This document shows positions 46,909-47,312 of a stretch of DNA of 54,644 bases, piece by piece (position 1 is the first letter of the stretch; every line of letters begins with the position of its first letter). The stretch is from contig DASYVT010000176.1 in assembly GCA_035936835.1 (NCBI GenBank), forward strand, positions 1 to 54,644, given 5' to 3'. Position numbers and translations under genes: made by a program. The stretch comes from Candidatus Methylomirabilota bacterium. GTDB taxonomy: Bacteria > Methylomirabilota > Methylomirabilia > Rokubacteriales > CSP1-6. A model generated the notes under the pieces. The model saw nothing but the letters and a program-made list of their open reading frames with translations. It made no database searches and was not told the DNA's origin.

Positions 46909-46968
46909 ATGCCGTCTTACTGGATCGAGGAACCGATGCTGCGGCGCAAACGGAGGGTCACGGCATGA
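46909..46968 (+). CDS. Possible 19-codon leader frame before the selenoprotein
   Basis: ATG at 46909 opens a frame MPSYWIEEPMLRRKRRVTA whose TGA stop overlaps the selenoprotein ATG as ATGA. ACAGG just upstream is a poor ribosome site because it is too close. It may simply be chance, or it may couple translation into the downstream gene. Confidence 0.25.
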   Translation: MPSYWIEEPMLRRKRRVTA

Positions 46969-47312
46969 CGAGAGTCGACTGGAGCTACCACCGCAACGGC
47001 TGACAGACCTGCGCGAGAACGCAAGGGTTCCTTGCGAAGCGCGGGATCAGCGCGGCCACCCAGGTGGACGCGAAGAAGCAGACGATCACGGGCGGGCACG
47101 CCCTCGGTGTGCTCGCCAAGGTGGACGAGCTCTACGTCGTCAGGGGCAAGCGCGTCGTCCACATGGATCTCAGCAAGGACAAGCCGGACAGGGCCACGCT
47201 GCTGGGCCTCTTGCTGGGGCCCACCGGCAACCTGCGGGCGCCCACGCTCAGGAAGGGGCGGACGCTCCTCGTGGGCTTCGACGAGGCGACGTACAGACAG
47301 GTGCTGGGCTAG
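46965..47312 (+). CDS. ArsC/thioredoxin-like selenoprotein, UGA codon 13 read as selenocysteine
   Basis: A strong GGAGGG sits seven bases before ATG 46965. The frame reads MTRVDWSYHRNG, then TGA at 47001-47003, then QTCARTQGFLAKRG and continues without break to TAG at 47310, 115 residues in all. Reading TGA as Sec gives a U-x-x-C redox motif exactly where ArsC/Spx-like thioredoxin-fold proteins have their catalytic Cys after the first strand. The rest (VVRGKRVVHMDL, LLGPTGNLRAPTLRKGRTL) resembles the group annotated as ArsC family (seleno)proteins, recalled without a search. A SECIS-like hairpin follows the UGA. Without Sec insertion only 12 residues would be made. The substrate is unknown. 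Confidence 0.85.
47009..47044 (+). promoter_or_regulatory. SECIS-like hairpin downstream of the UGA codon
   Basis: A lower stem CTGCGC (47009-47014) pairs with GCGCGG (47039-47044), one pair being a U-G wobble. An internal loop follows, then a perfect upper stem CGCAAGG (47020-47026) with CCTTGCG (47030-47036) capped by GTT. The apical loop starts 24 bases after the UGA. Bacterial SECIS elements lie in the coding region at this distance with G and U in the loop to bind SelB. Confidence 0.75.

Follow-up and report, generated by a model that had tools for sequence, protein, structure and literature searches.

The gene at positions 46965-47312 of the window (the whole 54,644-nucleotide stretch of DNA that was analysed) is very probably a genuine selenoprotein gene, a reading to which we assign a probability of roughly 0.97 and under which selenocysteine (Sec) would be inserted in vivo at an in-frame TGA. 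The frame begins with an ATG at 46965, ends with a TAG stop at 47310-47312 and is open throughout apart from codon 13, a TGA at 47001-47003; read through this codon, it completes a U-x-x-C motif, U13-Q-T-C16. The initial annotation had described an in-frame TGA in an otherwise intact gene, a strong ribosome site and a U-x-x-C motif, and direct reading of the frame bears out all of these (Table 1). The product is most likely a free-standing U-x-x-C selenol/thiol oxidoreductase.

Table 1. Positions in the window of the ArsC-related gene, its UGA codon and the associated hairpin.
Feature	Position	Strand	Comment
ArsC-related selenoprotein gene (NF041106)	46965..47312	+	115 residues including Sec13; 135.8 bits
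Shine-Dalgarno GGAGGG	46952..46957	+	7 nt 5' of the ATG; direct reading
UGA codon, Sec13 of the U13-Q-T-C16 motif	47001..47003	+	TGA in 71/79 loci, Cys in 8/79
Codon of resolving Cys16	47010..47012	+	column invariant in the family alignment
Bacterial SECIS element, entire hairpin	47006..47048	+	-24.2 kcal/mol, z -4.22
Lower SECIS stem	47006-47014 with 47039-47048	+	starts 2 nt after the UGA
SECIS core, 7-bp upper stem and GUU apical loop	47020..47036	+	conserved in TGA forms
Upper SECIS stem	47020-47026 with 47030-47036	+	7 pairs
GUU apical loop	47027-47029	+	23 nt after the UGA

With the TGA read as Sec, the product scores 135.8 bits against NF041106 of NCBIfam ('ArsC family (seleno)protein'), a match that covers the whole profile (1-107 of 107) and exceeds the curated cut-off of 85 bits; its own genome holds no other match to this family, and this one has 1 internal TGA. 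The family has already been catalogued as a selenoprotein: it is named by model number in a 2026 review (PMC13188914) and also listed in a 2022 review (PMC9312934), both of which credit earlier work and call it 'Arsenate reductase-like protein, UxxC', and it is likely the same family as the 'Arsenate reductase 2, UxxC' listed in a 2008 Global Ocean Sampling paper (PMC2398784). The gene described here adds a member from another genome; it shares with NF041106 (ArsC_rel_Se_1) the full-length match, the UxxC motif and the alternation of UGA and Cys at this codon and differs from it in nothing essential, the genome alone being new.

Homologues carry the same codon. We examined 80 related loci from public genomes, whose record titles name Rokuibacteriota, Methylomirabilota, Acidobacteria, Planctomycetota, Melainabacteria and others. 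Codon 13 is covered in 79 of these and reads TGA in 71 and Cys (TGC or TGT) in 8, with three loci (L054, L076 and L078) that were missed by the scripted pattern being read by eye. An unrelated residue at this position, which the initial annotation had set against a Sec codon, is found in none of the 79. In a survey of the phylum, 35 of 95 genomes encode a protein over the NF041106 cut-off, each with one internal TGA. Downstream of the TGA, dN/dS values of 0.44, 0.27 and 0.18 against three same-genus relatives indicate that this part of the gene is under purifying selection, and the invariant columns of the alignment include Y8, R10, position 13, C16 and the loop G85-P86-x-G88-x-L90-R91-A92-P93. 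On a tree of 54 members, most of whose inner branches are weak, the window protein groups with proteins from Candidatus Rokuibacteriota, and at least five changes between Sec and Cys are needed. The family also has a cultured representative in Limnoglobus roseus, which carries the Cys form.

The genome of this soil bacterium is 99.94% complete and encodes SelA (497.8 bits), SelB (373.5 bits), tRNA-Sec (71.3 bits) and SelD (347.6 bits), so the search for selA, selB, selC and selD that had been proposed for this genome recovers all four. The lack of selB and selC that the initial annotation had named as a refutation is thus not observed. selA adjoins selB on contig C235, with tRNA-Sec (anticodon TCA) upstream on the same contig, and selD lies on C183 (G000:C183:11015-11956, L135). 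Because selD has one in-frame TGA of its own, as reported in other bacteria, SelD is itself a probable selenoprotein. Full-length SelA is also encoded by all eight genomes that carry a Cys form (L024, L046, L051, L057, L062, L064, L068 and L076), and the exchange between Sec and Cys therefore does not simply follow from lost Sec decoding; the Cys form as a marker of such loss is ruled out.

Immediately 3' of the UGA, the window folds into the two-part hairpin with a GTT apical loop that had been noticed in the first reading. The segment 47001-47050 has a folding energy of -24.2 kcal/mol (z = -4.22), and none of 200 dinucleotide shuffles was equally stable. Under a stricter coding null, in which six neighbouring genes supplied the synonymous codons for 5000 versions, 14 of the 5000 folded as well or better and 0.54% kept all seven upper-stem pairs. 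Published constraints on bacterial SECIS elements comprise a loop of 3-9 nt, an upper stem of 4-16 bp, a G in the first two loop positions, a spacing of 16-37 nt from the UGA and a minimum free energy of at most -7.5 kcal/mol (PMC13188914), and the hairpin, with a 3-nt GUU loop, 7 bp, a spacing of 23 nt and -24.2 kcal/mol, agrees with every one of them. It resembles the bacterial consensus model (PMC13188914) in its place directly 3' of the UGA, its small loop starting with GU and its spacing, and differs from it in stem sequence, as is usual between families. An Rfam scan of the window returned nothing at gathering scores. A window-wide scan with loose criteria for TGA-readthrough genes followed by SECIS-like hairpins gave 17 candidates, among which the gene at 46965-47312 is the only one that, judged by eye, encodes a recognisable protein.

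Comparison of the hairpin between 71 TGA forms (70 loci and the window) and 8 Cys forms separates the two classes. Among TGA forms, 69 have GUU as the apical loop and 2 have GUA, so that its G and first U are present in all 71; the G, which is the last base of a GAG or GGG codon, is invariant. All seven upper-stem pairs are formed in 50 of 71 TGA forms and at least six in 63, whereas each of the 8 Cys forms has five or fewer. In 50 TGA forms the closing pair is A-U, and in 11 it is G-C; its A or G goes with a Glu or Gly codon and its U or C with the next codon, and at another upper-stem pair G-C is exchanged for C-G in six TGA forms. When codons were redealt among sequences sharing the same residue (1000 permutations of 70 distinct sequences), the full upper stem was formed in a mean of 30.3 sequences and a maximum of 41, compared to 49 of 70 in the real set. 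The upper stem is thus conserved beyond the demands of the protein sequence, with G-C/A-U compensation, and is missing from all 8 Cys homologues. This conservation concerns the upper hairpin alone, as the long lower stem seen in the window is not shared by most homologues. The hairpin proposed in the initial annotation is in this way upheld both by its stability and by its conservation in TGA forms and absence from Cys forms.

A nonsense mutation or sequencing error that leaves a dead or split gene would account for the TGA itself and for nothing else that we observe. It is vanishingly unlikely given that the same TGA recurs in 71 of 79 independent loci, including same-genus relatives under purifying selection, that the SECIS hairpin is conserved in TGA forms only and that the genome holds a complete Sec machinery. 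The split-gene reading is already contradicted by homologues that carry only TGA or Cys, by the SECIS element and by the machinery.

What the protein does is a separate matter, for which we turned to its predicted structure. An AlphaFold model built from an alignment of 54 members (mean pLDDT 93.9, pTM 0.87) has a thioredoxin fold. The best Foldseek match is Spx (E 9.4e-4), and with VIA-align the ArsC-family structure 3gkx (Z 8.8, rmsd 2.8, 88 aligned residues) and Spx 3ihq (Z 8.7, rmsd 3.0, 88 aligned residues) are tied as best; structural Z-scores of 8-9 for a predicted model are evidence of fold and not of function. In the model U13 sits just before helix 1, where it aligns with C10 of Spx and with Cys12 of R773 ArsC (sequence checked against 1i9d), while C16 aligns with C13 of Spx and has Ser as its counterpart in R773 ArsC. 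The earlier proposal of Sec at a thioredoxin-fold active site accords with the predicted fold and with the placement of U13 and C16 on the redox pair of Spx.

Superfamily membership and the position of the nucleophile are what the protein shares with ArsC (TIGR00014; R773 ArsC, 1i9d), and they lend some appeal to a selenium-boosted arsenate reductase in which Sec13 replaces the catalytic Cys12. ArsC-family homology is detectable (Pfam ArsC E 0.0012, below the family cut-off), and to this extent the initial description as 'ArsC-like' holds. A role in arsenate reduction does not follow from it, and we regard that function as quite unlikely. R773 ArsC has three catalytic arginines, none of which is conserved here: Arg60, Arg94 and Arg107 lie opposite V/A, A92 and V. 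The protein also has a second Cys at +3. Its own genome has no TIGR00014 ArsC match at E <= 0.001 and no Acr3 arsenite exporter was found there. The exporter is equally common in genomes with the family (9/35) and without it (15/60; Fisher p = 1.0). Neighbourhood clustering of the 80 loci revealed no conserved real neighbour to point to a partner or substrate, and no arsenic or metal-resistance gene in particular, the large clusters being accounted for by the gene and its antisense frames or by synteny between close relatives; a tblastn search of 23 related loci with eight neighbours from the window likewise gave no matches. The unconserved arginines, the genome without ArsC or Acr3 and the lack of a conserved neighbour therefore argue against arsenate reduction.

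Closer still by profile is Spx, the best-matching solved structure in a family profile search (E 1.9e-8) and among the closest by fold, and an Spx-like regulator of RNA polymerase in which the Sec-Cys pair stands in for the C10-C13 disulfide switch would agree with the placement of Sec and Cys at the positions of that switch. The protein resembles Spx (TIGR01617 / PRK01655) in fold, in the position of the CxxC motif and in its LRRP/LRAP loop. Sec in place of C10 sets it apart, however, as does its score of 26.4 bits against TIGR01617 (Spx/MgsR), well under the cut-off of 75.05. In Spx, the Gly52 loop makes contact with the C-terminal domain of the RNA polymerase alpha subunit; here the loop is shorter by four residues just before Gly52, and the residue opposite Gly52 is variable. 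We consider a regulatory role of this kind very improbable. It is also hard to favour binding of a soft metal or metalloid ion (Hg, As(III), Cu or Zn) by the Sec/Cys pair without redox cycling. Possible metal-ligand roles of Sec are mentioned for SaoB, SaoC and UXX-star proteins (PMC13188914), but the invariant chalcogen ligands number only two here, thiol-redox enzymes have both this fold and such an invariant Arg/Pro loop, and no metal-resistance gene is a conserved neighbour; we consider such binding improbable.

We therefore return to the selenol/thiol oxidoreductase, and judge a thiol-redox role for this selenoprotein to be well favoured. In the mechanism that we propose, SelB, directed by the SECIS hairpin right after the codon, would supply the UGA of codon 13 with Sec-tRNA(Sec), giving a single-domain thioredoxin-fold protein of 115 residues within the ArsC/Spx superfamily. 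At the N-terminal end of helix 1, the selenolate of Sec13 would be the attacking residue, and Cys16 would resolve it as a selenenylsulfide. The invariant loop G85-P86-x-G88-x-L90-R91-A92-P93 probably faces the active site, as judged from thioredoxin-fold homology, and the enzyme might be recycled by the thiol pool of the cell or by a thioredoxin-type donor. Such a cycle would fit a selenol/thiol oxidoreductase rather than an arsenate reductase or a regulator of RNA polymerase. As a class only, disulfides, peroxides or a small oxidised substrate are somewhat favoured as what it reduces.

Of the 95 genomes surveyed in the phylum, 33 encode members of a second group of proteins, with an in-frame TGA, that the NF041106 profile also matches, at 27-51 bits. 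This subfamily (L114-L126, L128 and L129, from other genomes of the phylum and outside the window) comprises proteins of about 105-115 residues with a UPTC-type motif and the sequence ...LVHEDGFLRVPVLVxGDLLVRGYTEELYREAL. Among 16 TGA-bearing hits inspected, fifteen carry a UP[TAS]C, UTSC-like or related motif and possess their own hairpin, of GUU type and in one instance of GGAU type; one example is GCGAGGGAGTTTCTCTCGC. The remaining hit, L127, is of the Spx/ArsC type (TIGR01617, 89.8 bits), with UTSC read via TGA and a strong hairpin after it, and represents the Spx/ArsC family proper in a Sec form. L130 (G040:C40), which is related to the second subfamily and has no TGA, carries CDCPSS in place of UPTC, and neither it nor the four UPTC-group members tested passed an NCBIfam cut-off. 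NF041106 and the second group are found in the same genome in 5 of 95 cases (Fisher p 0.0016, uncorrected for relatedness, and with all weak profile hits taken as the second group). Because the two groups largely replace each other across genomes, they could conceivably be two forms of a single dedicated selenol redox enzyme that stand in for each other and act on one specific substrate, a suggestion that we put forward as doubtful.

A very large selenoproteome has been reported for this phylum, with 63 genes in one MAG (PMC13188914). Our analysis adds to it a well-supported NF041106 member from Rokubacteria (Methylomirabilota), with a SECIS element and a complete Sec machinery, and shows that selection acts on the hairpin independently of the protein. 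It also narrows the function of the family, as the evidence weighs against the label 'arsenate reductase'. Should NF041106 and the UPTC subfamily prove to be forms of one such dedicated enzyme, identification of its substrate would establish a new selenium-dependent reaction among soil bacteria.
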